Shown piece after piece: positions 480 to 25,012 of a DNA stretch of 43,807 nt. The notes under the pieces are model-generated. The model had not been told where the DNA came from and did not search any database. It was given only the letters and a program-made list of their open reading frames with translations. The translations under genes and the position numbers were made by a program. Source of the stretch: Nitrospirae bacterium CG2_30_70_394 (GTDB lineage Bacteria > CG2-30-53-67 > CG2-30-70-394); the NCBI GenBank assembly GCA_001873295.1, contig MNYW01000092.1, positions 1 through 43,807 on the forward strand, written 5' to 3'. The number at the start of each line of letters is the position of its first letter. Positions within the stretch are counted from its first letter, which is position 1.

Positions 480-522
480 CCCGTCTCAGATTGAGACTGG
501 CTCCGTCTCAATCTGAGACGGG
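480..522. promoter_or_regulatory. perfect 18-bp inverted repeat made of two palindromic operators GTCTCA-N3-TGAGAC, centres 22 bp apart
   Basis: CCCGTCTCAGATTGAGAC-TGGCTCC-GTCTCAATCTGAGACGGG read directly. Confidence 0.7.
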
Positions 523-17147: not shown

Positions 17148-18032
17148 TTACTCGTGCCCCACCGCGGAGCTGGGGGCGACCCTGAACGAACGGGAAGCGC
17201 GGCGACGGCGGACGACGCCCATCGTGGCCAGGCCGGCGACCACCAGCGCCACGCTGGCCGGCTCGGGCACCACTCCGGCCATCATCTCCGATGCGCCGTC
17301 TGGGGATGCGGCAACCAGCACGAAGCTGCCCGACAGGCTCAATGTGTCTAAGGCCGGCAGCGGCGGCAGTGCCAGGGGCAGACCGGAGATCACCTCCCCG
17401 AACCCGGCGCTCGGCCCCACGAAGTGAAGCTCCGATGCGCCCAGAGGTCCGAGGGCAGCGCTCGAGTAGTCGATCACCGCGTCAAAGCTCTGAGATCCCA
17501 GTGCACCGGCGGCTACCGCGTAGGCAATCGGGAGCAGCCCCCCCGCCACCCCGCCGCCATCGACGCTGAACGAGACCGAAAAATCCGCCCGCGTCTCCAT
17601 GGCGCCGGCGCCCGGGTCGGGCGCGCCTTGGCTAGCGATCGCCCCCAACAGCGGGTCGATCCCCGACCAGTCGGCGGGAATGACCACGCGCGCCATGGTG
17701 GGCGAAAAATCGTAGGCGACGGTGATCTGACCAAATCCGGTCGGCGGGTCCGGCGTGAAACCCGAGTCCGTCCCCGCCGGAGTCGGCCCCAAGGGGAGCG
17801 GCCCAAGGACCGCATACGCCACCCCGCCGGAACTGAACGTGAACGTGGTCCAGTTCGTCCCCGCTACGATGCCCACGATCGCCGCCTCCGCGGTGACACC
17901 ACCGAAAACACAGGCGCCCAGCCACAGCGCGGGGAGCAACAGAAGCCTTCGCAAAGCCGACCGCAAGCGGGGCGTGGCCCCAGGGTTGTCGAGCCGGCGA
18001 GCGAAACACGGAGAACCGAGGTGAGCACTCAT
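17148..18032 (-). CDS. PEP-CTERM sorting-domain protein
   Basis: signal peptide; C-terminal VPEPASVALVVAGLATMGVVRRRR followed by ~15 extra residues. Confidence 0.88.
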   Translation of the reverse strand: MSAHLGSPCFARRLDNPGATPRLRSALRRLLLLPALWLGACVFGGVTAEAAIVGIVAGTNWTTFTFSSGGVAYAVLGPLPLGPTPAGTDSGFTPDPPTGFGQITVAYDFSPTMARVVIPADWSGIDPLLGAIASQGAPDPGAGAMETRADFSVSFSVDGGGVAGGLLPIAYAVAAGALGSQSFDAVIDYSSAALGPLGASELHFVGPSAGFGEVISGLPLALPPLPALDTLSLSGSFVLVAASPDGASEMMAGVVPEPASVALVVAGLATMGVVRRRRASRSFRVAPSSAVGHE

Positions 18033-18558: not shown

Positions 18559-19899
18559 TTAGAGGCCGTGCTTCTCTAACCGGTAGTCGAGGGTGTGGCG
18601 GGTGAGGTGGAGGAGGCGGGCGGCGGCGGCCTTGTTGCCGCCGGTGCGGGCGAGGGCCTGGGTGATGAGCTGGCGCTCGACCTCCGCCAGATCCGCGCCA
18701 GCGGGCGGCAGTTGCCACTGGGCAGCGGCGGCGGCAGGCAGGAGGTCGGCCGCGAGCTGCTCCCGGGTCAGCTCTTGGGCCGGGTAGAGGAGCGCCCACC
18801 GTTCACACAGGTTCTTCAGCTCGCGGATGTTCCCGGGCCACGGCGCCTCCTCCAGCAGCCGCACCGCGGCCGCGGAGAGGGTGGCCAGTTCCCGGCCGTG
18901 GCGCTGGGCGGCTTGCTGGAGAAACTCCGCGGCGAGGCGAGCGAGATCGGCGCGCCGTTCGCGCAGCGGCGGCATGGCCAGGGTGATGACCGCGAGGCGG
19001 TAGTAGAGGTCGTTGCGAAAGCGGCCGCTGGCCATCATCGCTCGCAGGTCTTGGTGGGTGGCCGCGATCACCCGGGCGTCGACGCGCACCGGCCGATCCG
19101 CGCCCACCGCCTGCACCTCGCCTCCCTGCAGGAAGCGCAGCAGCTTCACCTGCGCGGCCAGGGGTAGATCGCCGATCTCGTCGAGAAAGAGGGTGCCGCC
19201 GTCGGCGGCCAAGAGGCGGCCGGGGCGGGCGTGGTCGGCGCCGGTGAAGGCGCCCTTCGCGTGGCCGAATAGCTCCGCCTCGACCAGGGTCTCGGGAAGA
19301 GCGCCGCAGTTCACCACCACCCACGGTGCCGCGGCGCGCGGCGAGCGGTCGTGGATCGCCCGCGCGAGGTGCTCCTTGCCGGTGCCGGTCTCGCCGAGGA
19401 TCAGAACGTGGGCGTCGGTGTCGGCGACCGCGAAGGCCTGGGCGTAGATCGCGTTGACCCGCGGCGAGCAGCTCGGGGTGGGCGCGCTGCGAGTGGTGAG
19501 GGCGTCGCGCAACCGCTGGTTGTCGCGCTTGAGCCGTGCCCAGGCAACCGCGCGCTCGACCGTCGCCAGCACGTGCGCCTCGTGAAACGGCTTGGTGATG
19601 AAGTCGAAGGCGCCCGCCTTCATCACCTCCACCGCCCCCTCGACGCTGGCGTAGGCGGTCATCACCACCACCGTCGCCTCTGGATCCTCCGCCAGCACTG
19701 CCGCCAGGACCGCCTGGCCGTCTTGGTGCGGCATGCGCAGATCGGTGAGCAACACCAAGGGCCGCTCTGCGCGGTAACGCTTCACCGCCTCGCGGCCGTC
19801 CGCGGCCTCGCTCACCCGATAGCCCGCGTCCACAAACTGGATGGCGAGGACCTGGCGCACCCCGGGGTCGTCGTCGGCGATGAGGATGAGCGGCGTCAT
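18559..19899 (-). CDS. sigma-54-dependent NtrC-family response regulator
   Basis: receiver DDDPGVRQVL/LLTDLRMP; GETGTGKEHLARAIH; ELFGHAKGAFTGA; C-terminal Fis-type HTH. Confidence 0.96.
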   Translation of the reverse strand: MTPLILIADDDPGVRQVLAIQFVDAGYRVSEAADGREAVKRYRAERPLVLLTDLRMPHQDGQAVLAAVLAEDPEATVVVMTAYASVEGAVEVMKAGAFDFITKPFHEAHVLATVERAVAWARLKRDNQRLRDALTTRSAPTPSCSPRVNAIYAQAFAVADTDAHVLILGETGTGKEHLARAIHDRSPRAAAPWVVVNCGALPETLVEAELFGHAKGAFTGADHARPGRLLAADGGTLFLDEIGDLPLAAQVKLLRFLQGGEVQAVGADRPVRVDARVIAATHQDLRAMMASGRFRNDLYYRLAVITLAMPPLRERRADLARLAAEFLQQAAQRHGRELATLSAAAVRLLEEAPWPGNIRELKNLCERWALLYPAQELTREQLAADLLPAAAAAQWQLPPAGADLAEVERQLITQALARTGGNKAAAARLLHLTRHTLDYRLEKHGL

Positions 19900-21056
19900 G
19901 GGGTGGCGCGGGGCAGGGTGAGGACAAAGGTCGTGGTACCCGCGGCGGAGGCGCAACGCAACGTCCCGTGGTGCGCCTCCGCAATCCGCGCCGCGATCGC
20001 CAGGCCGAGCCCGGTCCCCTCGGCGCGGGTGGTAAAGAAGGGATCGAAGACCCGCTCCCGATCGGCGGCGGCGATCGTCTCCCCGCGGTTCTCCACCGCC
20101 AGCTCCCACCCCTCCCCGGTGGTCCGCGACGCGACCTGAATGGTGCTGCCCGGCTCGGCGAACTGGCCGGCGTTGAGGAGCAGGTTGACCAGCACCTGGG
20201 CGAGCTGGTCTCGATCCCCGTCGAGGGTGAGGGCGTCAGAATCCTCGCGCAGCTCCACGCGCAGCCCCTGGGACTCGAGCTGCGGGCGCATCAACAGGAC
20301 GCAGTGGCGGACCACTGCATGCGGATCGAGGGGGCGGATGGCGGGAGTCGCGGGACGGGCGAACTCGAGCACGTGGTGGGTGATCTCCCCCAGGCGGCCG
20401 ATCTCGGACTGGAGGCGATCCAGCAGCGGCGCCACCCGCTCCGGGTGGCTGGTGGCGGAGCGGCGCAGGATGTCCACCGCCCCCTGCATGGTGGTCAAAG
20501 GATTGCGTACCTCGTGGGCGATCCCCGCAGCCATCTGCCCCAGCGCCGCGAGACGCTCGGCGCGGCGCGCAATCGCGTAGCTCCGCGTCGCCTCGGTGAG
20601 GGCCAGATCACGCTGGATCGCGGTTTGCCGGTGGCGCTCCAGCTCGCCGGCCAGGCGGTCGCGCAGCCAGCCGGTGACCCCGCCGACGAGAAAGAGCAGG
20701 ACCATGTCGCTCGCCTGGCTGGCGGTAAACATCCCCGAGTGGAGGTGGGCGCCGTGGCCGCGGTGCGGATAGAGGAGGGCGGCCACCGCCGCGGTGGCGA
20801 TCCCGCCGCGGCTGCCGGACCAGAAGCCGGCGAGGATCACCGGCACGAAGTAGAGCTTCTGGGTGAGGGTCATCCAGAAGGGGGCGCTGGCCAGGTGGAT
20901 GGCGTTGTGGGCGAGCGTGACCCCCACCACCAACAAGGCGATGGTTAGCCAGCGCGCGCGGCGCGCGGAGGCGGGGAGGGGCGGGGTGGCCGCGGGGAGC
21001 GGAGCGCTCCCGCCCGCGGCCGTGGGGCTCCGCTCTTCCGTGGAACCCCCGTTCAT
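19896..21056 (-). CDS. membrane sensor histidine kinase partner of the NtrC-type regulator
   Basis: ALGQMAAGIAHEVRNPLTTMQGAVDIL H-box; GTGLGLAIAARIAEAHHG; ATGA overlap with the regulator. Confidence 0.94.
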   Translation of the reverse strand: MNGGSTEERSPTAAGGSAPLPAATPPLPASARRARWLTIALLVVGVTLAHNAIHLASAPFWMTLTQKLYFVPVILAGFWSGSRGGIATAAVAALLYPHRGHGAHLHSGMFTASQASDMVLLFLVGGVTGWLRDRLAGELERHRQTAIQRDLALTEATRSYAIARRAERLAALGQMAAGIAHEVRNPLTTMQGAVDILRRSATSHPERVAPLLDRLQSEIGRLGEITHHVLEFARPATPAIRPLDPHAVVRHCVLLMRPQLESQGLRVELREDSDALTLDGDRDQLAQVLVNLLLNAGQFAEPGSTIQVASRTTGEGWELAVENRGETIAAADRERVFDPFFTTRAEGTGLGLAIAARIAEAHHGTLRCASAAGTTTFVLTLPRATP

Positions 21057-21074
21057 CGCCCGCCTCGCGGCGGA

Positions 21075-21111
21075 TGCGGCATATGCCGCACTGCCTGCCG
21101 CTTTTGCCGCA
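21075..21111. promoter_or_regulatory. tandem dyads TGCGGCATATGCCGCA and TGCCGCTTTTGCCGCA, centres 21 bp apart (candidate EBP upstream activating sites)
   Basis: first dyad a perfect 16-bp palindrome; second differs at one half-site base. Confidence 0.65.
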
Positions 21112-21187
21112 CCCTGCACCGCGGCGCCACCCGCGTCCTCGCCCGAAGGTCCAGCAACTGCGCCCTCCGCCCAGACCACCGCCGGGC

Positions 21188-21203
21188 CGGCACGCGGGTT
21201 GCA
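21188..21203 (+). promoter_or_regulatory. sigma-54 -24/-12 promoter (CGGCACGCGGGTTGCA)
   Basis: close match to TGGCACG-N4-TTGCW; ~70 bp upstream of lipoprotein start at 21273. Confidence 0.75.
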
Positions 21204-21272
21204 AGCTGCGGTTCGTCCCCGGTGCACCTGCCACCCACCCTGTTCCCGCCTCCCTCGGAGCCGATCGCCGCC

Positions 21273-23102
21273 ATGAATCGCCACCTGTGTCGCCGTGCAA
21301 CGTCGCGGCTGTTATTGCCCGCGGTAGCCCTCGCGTCAACGCTCGCCATGACCGCCGGCTGCGGCAGCAGCAGCGGCAGTGGCGGTACCCCCAGTGGTTC
21401 CACGACCCAGATCACCGGCCAGGCGATCGCCGGGGCGGTGACCGGCACGGTGGTGGTCGCGGATGGCGCCGGGACCACGGTCGCGTCGGCCGCCGTCACC
21501 GCGGGCGGATTCACGGTGAGCGTGGGGGACTCGGCCCTCGATGGGGAGCTCGACTTCGTTGTCACCGGCAGCTACACGGACGAAGTCTCCGGGGAGATGG
21601 TCCAGTTGACCGCCGCCGATCCCCTGGCACTGACCACGGCGGCGGGCCACTTCGTCGCCGGCGCGACCGGCAACGCGCCGATCACCCCCGGGTCTACCGT
21701 CGTGCGCAGGTTGGTCCGGGACCACACCATGACCCTCACCGCCGCGCGCGCCGCCTTCCAGGCCGCGTTCGGCTATGCGCCCGACCTGGACGCGCGGCCG
21801 TTCGATCCCACCGGCACCGCGCCCGCCGCGGCGACCGGCGCCGACGAGGATGAGGCGTTCCGCGCCGGCGTCTTCAGCCAGCTCGCCAGCGACCTCGGCC
21901 TGACCACCGGCGCGGCGATCGCGGCCCTGTTCCGCGGCCTGGCAGACGATCTGGCCGACGGCACCCTCGACGGGCTTGCCGGGGCGGGCCAGCCGGTGAT
22001 GGTCGGCACCGTTGATTTGGCGACACGCCACACGGAGAACGCCCTCTGCGCCCGCCTGCTCACCGCCCACGGCGAGTTTGTAGAGAACACCGCCAACGGT
22101 GGTGGGTTGGCCGCCCCCACCTCTGGTCTGCCGGCGCTGGTCTACGACGGCGCCGGCGCTCGCCGCACGGTCACCACCCCCGGCGGACGGAGGGTGACCG
22201 TCACCCTCAACACCGCGGCCGAGCCGCCGTTCACCGCCGGCTTTTGGACCGCGCGGGTCGCCCACCAGATCACCCTGACGGACGCGGACAACCACGACGC
22301 GCCAATCGACATCACCAGCGACCCGACGATCGTCGACGTGAGCCACCACCCCCTGATGCACATGCTCAGCGGCCACGACCACACCACCCCCCACGCCCAC
22401 GAGCCCGACACCCGCGGCGCGGCCGCGGGCCAGTACGTGCTCGACGCCTACTACGTGATGGCCTCGGAGATGGGGATGGGGGCGATGGCCATGCCCATGG
22501 GAGTGTGGGACTACACAGTGCGGATCGACGAGGACAGCAACCGCGATGGCACGGTGGACACCACCACCGAGGTGATCTTTCACCCGAAGGTGGATCCGCC
22601 GATGGGGGGCGCCGTGCTCTTCGCCCAGGTGAACCACGCCGCCGATACCTGGACCTCCATGGATGGGACGACCGGTCCGCGCCCCTACCGGGTGTGGCTC
22701 CACGAGGTGGTCACCAACGGCGACGGGAGCCACGACCTGACCCTCTTCGTCTCCACCCAGGAGATGGTGGACATGGCGATGGCGGGGATGGACCACCACG
22801 CCGGCATGACCTTCCCGGCGGTCTACCCGGGGTTGACCCTCCACGGTCCGGTGGATGAGATGGGGATGCGCCCGGAGGTCCTGATCGCCACGGTCGCCGT
22901 TGAGGTCTCCACCGACGGCGCGACCTGGGTCGCGTTGGCCGAGGAAGAGCCCTCCAGCGGCCGCTACCAGGTCACCCACCTGGCAGGCCTCGACAATACC
23001 GCCGCCGGTCCGGACACCCTGGCGGTGCGCCTGACGGTGAACGGCCATTCGATGCAGACCGCGGCCGGGGCGGAAAGCCAACTCCTCTTCACCGCGCCGT
23101 AA
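21273..23102 (+). CDS. His/Met-rich lipoprotein, unknown function
   Basis: lipobox ...STLAMTAGC; clusters HHPLMHMLSGHDHTTPHAHEPD, MASEMGMGAMAMPMG, MVDMAMAGMDHHAGM. Confidence 0.85.
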   Translation: MNRHLCRRATSRLLLPAVALASTLAMTAGCGSSSGSGGTPSGSTTQITGQAIAGAVTGTVVVADGAGTTVASAAVTAGGFTVSVGDSALDGELDFVVTGSYTDEVSGEMVQLTAADPLALTTAAGHFVAGATGNAPITPGSTVVRRLVRDHTMTLTAARAAFQAAFGYAPDLDARPFDPTGTAPAAATGADEDEAFRAGVFSQLASDLGLTTGAAIAALFRGLADDLADGTLDGLAGAGQPVMVGTVDLATRHTENALCARLLTAHGEFVENTANGGGLAAPTSGLPALVYDGAGARRTVTTPGGRRVTVTLNTAAEPPFTAGFWTARVAHQITLTDADNHDAPIDITSDPTIVDVSHHPLMHMLSGHDHTTPHAHEPDTRGAAAGQYVLDAYYVMASEMGMGAMAMPMGVWDYTVRIDEDSNRDGTVDTTTEVIFHPKVDPPMGGAVLFAQVNHAADTWTSMDGTTGPRPYRVWLHEVVTNGDGSHDLTLFVSTQEMVDMAMAGMDHHAGMTFPAVYPGLTLHGPVDEMGMRPEVLIATVAVEVSTDGATWVALAEEEPSSGRYQVTHLAGLDNTAAGPDTLAVRLTVNGHSMQTAAGAESQLLFTAP

Positions 23103-24151
23103 TGAGGCCGCCTCTCTTTCGGCTCGGCCGTGTGGATGGCGCGCAGACGCACAATCCAGCTCGGCGCCGGACCGTGGTGCGGCCCCTCCTTCGGCTGGGT
23201 TGCGCCGCCCTGGGGCTCCTTTTCCTTTTCGCCCCCGCCGCGGTCCACGCCGCCTCTTGTTGCGGTGGCGGCTCGGCCGCTGCCCTGGTGTTGCCCAAGT
23301 TCTCTCGGGCGATGGTCGCGGTGAGCCTCGACGCGGAGCACTACGACGGCTTCTGGAACGGCGACGGCTTCTGGCGCCGCGATCCGCCGGAGACCGATCT
23401 CAACCAGTACCGCCTCAACGTCGGCGGCGCCTATCGGTTGGCTTCGCGCTGGCAGGGGTTCGCGGTGCTCCCCTACGTCTGGAACCGCAACGACTACTCC
23501 GGTCTGGCGCGCGACACCGCCGGCCTCGGCGATTCCACGATCGGCGTCTGGTACGAGTCCTTTGACGACATCCGGTGCGTCTGGCGGGTGGGGAGCTGGC
23601 GAGACCTCAAGCCGGCGGTCTACTGGGGGGCGGCGGTCACGGTGCCCACCGGTACCTCGCCCTATGACGAGGTCAGCGACAACTTCGACATCACCGGCCG
23701 CGGCTTCTACCGCCTCGACGGCTCCGTGTTGCTCGACAAGACGATCTATCCCTGGTCCACCTCCGTGCAGCTCACCTATGGCCGCCACTTTGAGCGCGCG
23801 GTGAATCGCGAGTACGGCAACGCCGTGGAGCCGTACGACAAACGTCTCGGCGACCGGGCAAGCGCCACCGCGAGCCTCGGCTACACCTACTTCACCGGCG
23901 CGATGCACTCCCTCACCGGGACGGTCTCCTTCACCGACTTGTGGGAGGATAAGCAGCGGATCGACGGCGACGAGGACCCGACCTCGGGGTTGCGCAAGCG
24001 CGCCCTCGGAGGCGCCCTCGCGTGGGCCGCGCCCGACCGCAACTGGATTGTCAAACTCGCCTACAGCCACGCCCTGCAATACGACGGCTGGGGGCGGAAC
24101 TTTCCTACGACCGACGTCGTCTCGGTGGGGGTCAGCCATGTCTTCCGGTAA
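23102..24151 (+). CDS. outer-membrane beta-barrel-like protein, unknown function
   Basis: signal peptide then AASCCGGGSAAALVLPKF; alternating aromatic strands; C-terminal VSVGVSHVFR; TAATG coupling to the upstream gene. Confidence 0.7.
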   Translation: MRPPLFRLGRVDGAQTHNPARRRTVVRPLLRLGCAALGLLFLFAPAAVHAASCCGGGSAAALVLPKFSRAMVAVSLDAEHYDGFWNGDGFWRRDPPETDLNQYRLNVGGAYRLASRWQGFAVLPYVWNRNDYSGLARDTAGLGDSTIGVWYESFDDIRCVWRVGSWRDLKPAVYWGAAVTVPTGTSPYDEVSDNFDITGRGFYRLDGSVLLDKTIYPWSTSVQLTYGRHFERAVNREYGNAVEPYDKRLGDRASATASLGYTYFTGAMHSLTGTVSFTDLWEDKQRIDGDEDPTSGLRKRALGGALAWAAPDRNWIVKLAYSHALQYDGWGRNFPTTDVVSVGVSHVFR

Positions 24152-24722
24152 GCGCTGGCGGCCGCGGGTCGCCGCCGTGTTGTGTCTCCTCCTCGCGGCC
24201 TGTGGCGGGGTGGGGGATGATCTCGTGCCGACGGACACGGACCAGCGCGCCACCCTCGCCGCCGGCGCGGTGGGCTCCACCCCCGGGGCGACCGCTCTCG
24301 ACTTCCAGGTGCAGGACAGCGCCGACAACACGGTCAGACTCGCGGACTATCTGAGCGATGGCGCCACCCCTGCGGATGCGGTGGTCCTCTACTTCACCAT
24401 GTGGTGTCCGATCTGCCTGAGCCACTCGGACCACCTGCTCACCACGGTGGTCCCGCGCTTCCGCGACCGGGGCCATGTGGTCTACGCCCTGGTGGACTAC
24501 GTCTCCGGGTCGGTGACCCTGGCGCGGGCCGCGGAGCAGGGCAACGGTTACGCCGGCTCGGACTTCGTGGTCCTGGCGGATATCGGCCAGACGCTGTTTG
24601 ACCAGTTCGACGCCGCCATGGGGACAATCGTGGTGATCGACGCGGGCGGGGTGATCCGGCTCAACGAGGACTACCGCACCGGCGCCAACCTGGTGGCCAC
24701 CCTCGACGAGTTGTTGCCATGA
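24138..24722 (+). CDS. thioredoxin-fold/redoxin lipoprotein (CPIC)
   Basis: lipobox LLLAAC; LYFTMWCPICLSHSDHL active site; overlaps upstream gene. Confidence 0.8.
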   Translation: MSSGKRWRPRVAAVLCLLLAACGGVGDDLVPTDTDQRATLAAGAVGSTPGATALDFQVQDSADNTVRLADYLSDGATPADAVVLYFTMWCPICLSHSDHLLTTVVPRFRDRGHVVYALVDYVSGSVTLARAAEQGNGYAGSDFVVLADIGQTLFDQFDAAMGTIVVIDAGGVIRLNEDYRTGANLVATLDELLP

Positions 24723-25012
24723 CCTCGATCGCTCGGGCTTGCGCGGCCGTGGTGGCGGCGGTCGTGGTCGGCTGCGCCGCACCCGCGGCGGAGGTGGGCG
24801 AGGGGGAGGTCGCCCGCGGCGCGGAGGTCTTCGCGACCTACTGCACCGACCGCTGCCACCAGACGCCGCGCCCCGACTCCCTCACCGCGAACCAGTGGCG
24901 GGCGGTGGCGCAGACCATGCAGGCGCGCCTTGCGGAGCAGGGACAGGAGCCGATCGCCCCGGCGGACTACGCCGCGTTGCTTGCCTACCTGACCACCCAC
25001 GCCCGCGAGTAG
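24719..25012 (+). CDS. small c-type cytochrome-like protein with atypical CX3CH motif
   Basis: lipoprotein-type signal; FATYCTDRCHQTPRPDSL; ATGA overlap with upstream gene. Confidence 0.7.
   Translation: MTSIARACAAVVAAVVVGCAAPAAEVGEGEVARGAEVFATYCTDRCHQTPRPDSLTANQWRAVAQTMQARLAEQGQEPIAPADYAALLAYLTTHARE

Follow-up and report, generated by a model that had tools for sequence, protein, structure and literature searches.

The intergenic region between a two-component kinase/regulator pair and a divergently transcribed operon in Nitrospirae bacterium CG2_30_70_394 raises the question of how that operon is switched on and whether the neighbouring pair is responsible. It is likely, in our view, that these 216 bp form a sigma-54 control region for the operon (21273-25012), with the adjacent pair acting through twin dyads. 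The window, by which we mean the whole stretch of DNA analysed (43,807 nt), is contig C15 of a draft genome of 2.65 Mb in 182 contigs, estimated to be 94% complete. The phylum is small, and eight of its genomes were searched. Below, the promoter, the dyads, the pair and the operon are described in turn, followed by the control of related operons in other bacteria and the alternatives to the preferred reading.

The intergenic region and its promoter

The region is bounded by the start codon of the kinase gene (ATG 21056, minus strand) and that of a lipoprotein gene (ATG 21273, plus strand); its sequence and coordinates, as given in the original prediction, were correct on rechecking. Beyond ATG 21056 the kinase frame continues open, but third-position GC declines there from 0.91 to 0.67. 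On this ground a longer kinase gene reaching into the region was rejected, and the 216 bp are truly intergenic and non-coding.

On the plus strand, at 21188-21203, the region carries the -24/-12 promoter CGGCACGCGGGTTGCA, in which the GG and GC elements stand at the proper spacing within near-consensus flanks. The element (CGGCACG-CGGG-TTGCA) departs from TGGCACGN4TTGCW by one mismatch and reads into the lipoprotein gene. It is the only sigma-54 site with one mismatch or fewer in the window, so that the near-consensus promoter originally proposed is borne out; among 3000 dinucleotide-shuffled versions of the region, six gave a site of this quality on either strand. The genome also encodes rpoN (PF04552, E 6e-59), the absence of which had been named beforehand as a reason to abandon the proposal. 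When the strict pattern YGGCACGN4TTGCW was sought throughout the genome, 11 sites were found, compared with 0 and 3 for the reversed control on the two strands. All 11 lie 18-87 nt before an ORF, several of these with a visible Shine-Dalgarno sequence, and this organism therefore very probably uses promoters of the -24/-12 type. Of the candidate starts downstream of 21188-21203, a GTG comes first, at 18 nt, but the ATG at 69 nt is favoured as the start of the lipoprotein because of the signal peptide.

The twin dyads

A dyad scan, shuffles and a genome search were applied to the sequence upstream of the promoter. As originally described, it contains one perfect and one near-perfect dyad with centres 21 bp apart: TGCGGC-ATAT-GCCGCA at 21075-21090, a probable (predicted) regulator site, and TGCCGC-TTTT-GCCGCA, with one mismatch, at 21096-21111. 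The second ends 76 bp before the -24 box, and the two centres fall at approximately -131 and -110 relative to the transcription start expected at 21213-21215. A lone dyad means little, because loose dyads are common at such GC: single dyads with up to two mismatches numbered 18, with 12.3 expected. When the 216 bp were put through 3000 dinucleotide shuffles, pairs of like quality (similar arms, within 60 bp) appeared in 15. The twin arrangement occurs nowhere else in the 2.65 Mb draft genome, where two matches with three mismatches have no dyad symmetry, and it is absent from the other NtrC-type regulator loci inspected, 14 in the genome and one in a sister species. The simplest reading of the twin dyad is that of a dedicated local site, to which the adjacent regulator is predicted to bind. 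Elsewhere in the genome, contigs C124, C144, C117 and C5 have perfect or near-perfect dyads, but these are situated within or next to other open frames and were set aside.

A long near-perfect inverted repeat, CCGTCTCAGATTGAGAC...GTCTCAATCTGAGACGG, is found in another intergenic part of the window (480-522); it has the character of a terminator-like hairpin or of a repeat element, not of an activator site.

The kinase and the NtrC-type regulator

The regulator (18560-19899, minus strand) has a receiver domain (PF00072), a sigma-54 activation AAA+ domain (PF00158) with the GAFTGA motif and a Fis-type helix-turn-helix (PF02954), which is the domain content of a group I enhancer-binding protein, and it aligns over its full length to solved NtrC-family proteins. 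Its assignment to the NtrC class, with GAFTGA, is thus upheld by sequence and domain matches alike. The partner is a membrane sensor histidine kinase (19896-21056, minus strand), with Pfam HisKA and HATPase_c domains behind a membrane region; its stop codon and the regulator start overlap as ATGA at 19896-19899, in agreement with the coupling proposed for the two genes. The regulator scores below every NCBIfam equivalog cut-off tested, namely AtoC (416 bits, cut-off 714), NtrC (412, cut-off 559), the PEP-CTERM regulator (385, cut-off 503) and ZraR (367, cut-off 760). The PEP-CTERM regulator family is nevertheless among the closest to it, though below cut-off, and a protein with a PEP-CTERM sorting signal (17148-18032) is encoded beside the regulator genes.

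The eight genomes of the phylum hold no orthologous kinase/regulator pair through which the dyads could be footprinted. Full-length regulators there reach 40-47% identity at best, with no evident orthologue among them, and the nearest kinase (37-39%) was rejected as an orthologue, being a different kinase beside another conserved gene set. Dyad binding by the adjacent regulator is accordingly put forward as a prediction.

The probable target operon

The genes of the operon, all on the plus strand, overlap by a few bases each. The first encodes the lipoprotein (21273-23102), which matches no Pfam or NCBIfam family but has homologues, with conserved Met/His positions, at four gammaproteobacterial loci (L013-L016); the structure model of its core was too poor to use (pLDDT 49). 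It is followed by a predicted outer-membrane beta-barrel (23102-24151), with the mature N-terminus ASCCGGG and 54-59% identity to its relatives, for which a model of moderate quality was closest, by Foldseek, to FapF and the COG4313 channels. The third product is a thioredoxin-like (AhpC/TSA) lipoprotein (24138-24722; PF00578), conserved in the operon. The fourth is a small c-type cytochrome (24719-25012), for which the Pfam cytochrome match is weak and below cut-off and the operon position is conserved. The four-gene unit recurs in the gammaproteobacterial MAGs of L013-L016 (L015 ends at a contig end) and in five other genomes; no plasmid records with the channel protein were found.

The first proposal, which holds in part, took the divergent operon as the target; what it missed is the identity of the operon, the relatives of which point to copper handling. 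By association with the genes around those relatives, copper handling is our best guess for the operon of the window as well.

Control of the related operons

In other bacteria the operon is accompanied by other control signals. A DUF2946 protein heads it at L053 and L054, with a match above the family cut-off, and at L052, with a weak match; all three leaders share a C-x2-C motif and a C-terminal RAPP or RGPP with CruR of Bordetella. DUF2946 is the family of the copper sensors CruR and CutF: nascent CruR detects copper and thereby regulates the genes downstream of it (PMC9426467), and CutF is similar to CruR (PMC9973294). The likeness suggests copper-dependent leader control at L052, L053 and L054. 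At the window locus, where the leader is approximately 60 nt, and in the rest of the genome, there is no DUF2946 leader ORF. At L051 the operon is preceded by a DUF326 protein, and the DUF326 family includes the Csp copper-storage proteins.

A second type of control would involve the redox two-component system RegB/RegA (PrrBA, ActSR), the genes for which are divergent to the same operon at L014 and L016, with the regulator in the same place at L015 also. Upstream of the operon at L013-L016 stands TGCGACA-N3-TGTCGCA, or a version of it with one mismatch, and the copy at L013 agrees with the RegR consensus quoted in PMC5506826. The half-site resembles that of the window dyads, but RegA has no AAA+ domain and the loci in question have no sigma-54 site. 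RegA control of the window operon is unsupported, as a search of the genome with E up to 1e-25 found no relative of RegA. The RegA/RegR box GNGRCRTTNNGNCGC has a spacer of 5 between GCGRC and GNCGC, as opposed to 4 in the window dyad. We would regard the shared TGCGRC, speculatively, as the mark of a common Fis-type fold or as chance.

No sigma-54 site within two mismatches is present at any of the nine related operon loci. Sigma-54 control therefore looks local, and it seems to be a solution particular to CG2_30_70_394. A broader idea, which we offer tentatively and consider rather doubtful, is that a single conserved envelope operon with links to copper has had its control rewired in at least three ways (by DUF2946 leaders, by RegB/RegA with a sigma-70-like promoter, and by an NtrC-type pair with sigma-54 here), the TGCGRC half-site being kept while regulator class and sigma factor changed. 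A comparison of these loci could show how a single operon changes its regulator and sigma factor. The locus also draws attention to an envelope operon, copper-linked and uncharacterised, of lipoprotein, channel, thioredoxin-like protein and cytochrome c, with lineage-dependent regulation.

Mechanism and alternatives

In the scheme we favour, the kinase would respond to a cue, perhaps copper or the redox state of the envelope, and phosphorylate the regulator, which would then bind both dyads, contact sigma-54 polymerase at 21188-21203 by looping and drive open-complex formation, turning the operon on; the same dyads may also serve to autoregulate the pair. The binding to the dyads, the transcription start, the signal and the autoregulation are what we infer. 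Like ZraSR, AtoSC and DctBD, NtrC-family systems with a local divergent target, the locus combines a kinase, a receiver/AAA+/Fis-type regulator and dyads upstream of a -24/-12 promoter; unlike them, it has a regulator below the equivalog cut-offs and a different target operon. The architecture is a textbook type of switch, and the mild surprise lies in the other control signals of the same operon in other bacteria. For a phylum that has been little studied, the locus supplies a sigma-54 circuit that is clean and testable.

This reading is favoured by the rarity of the promoter in shuffles, the 11 genome sites, rpoN, the adjacent GAFTGA regulator, the unique twin dyad and the conserved operon; against it stand the lack of an orthologous pair, the nine related operons without a sigma-54 site and the approximately 18 NtrC-type regulators encoded in the genome, any other of which could act at the dyads. 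That number, together with the resemblance of the half-site to the RegR/RegA-type box before related operons, lends something to the view of a genuine promoter with dyads that bind another factor (of RegA-like specificity or another NtrC-type protein), the adjacent regulator acting elsewhere. We consider this unlikely, given the missing RegA relative, the spacer of 4 and the occurrence of the twin dyad only beside the adjacent regulator. The original description of the circuit as self-contained is made plausible by the lack of a second twin dyad in the genome; the wiring, however, is not conserved, since relatives of the operon lack the sigma-54 site.

The dyads are also situated upstream of the kinase gene, 19-55 bp from its start, and the leader containing them folds somewhat better than shuffles (z -2.6), as might be expected of an autoregulatory operator or leader RNA hairpin serving only the pair, with no action on the operon. 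A sigma-54 promoter needs an upstream activator site, though, and the dyads are at a normal distance for one; a search for a sigma-70-type promoter of the pair found none, and the best fold has no separate dyad hairpins, all of which makes this restricted role distinctly improbable. It is scarcely credible that GC-rich sequence has yielded functionless dyads and a promoter-like match by chance: loose dyads are indeed common, and the window has dyad pairs of different sequence in other places, but each element is rare in shuffles, and here the two are combined, correctly ordered and spaced, next to a matching regulator.

Other sigma-54 sites of the genome

The ten other strict sigma-54 sites of the genome (L003-L012) each stand just before an ORF and constitute a draft sigma-54 regulon. 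The genes that follow them include those for a PEP-CTERM protein (L007), a multihaem-type cytochrome (L008), an outer-membrane efflux-like protein (L009), a response regulator (L005) and a ferredoxin-like protein (L012).
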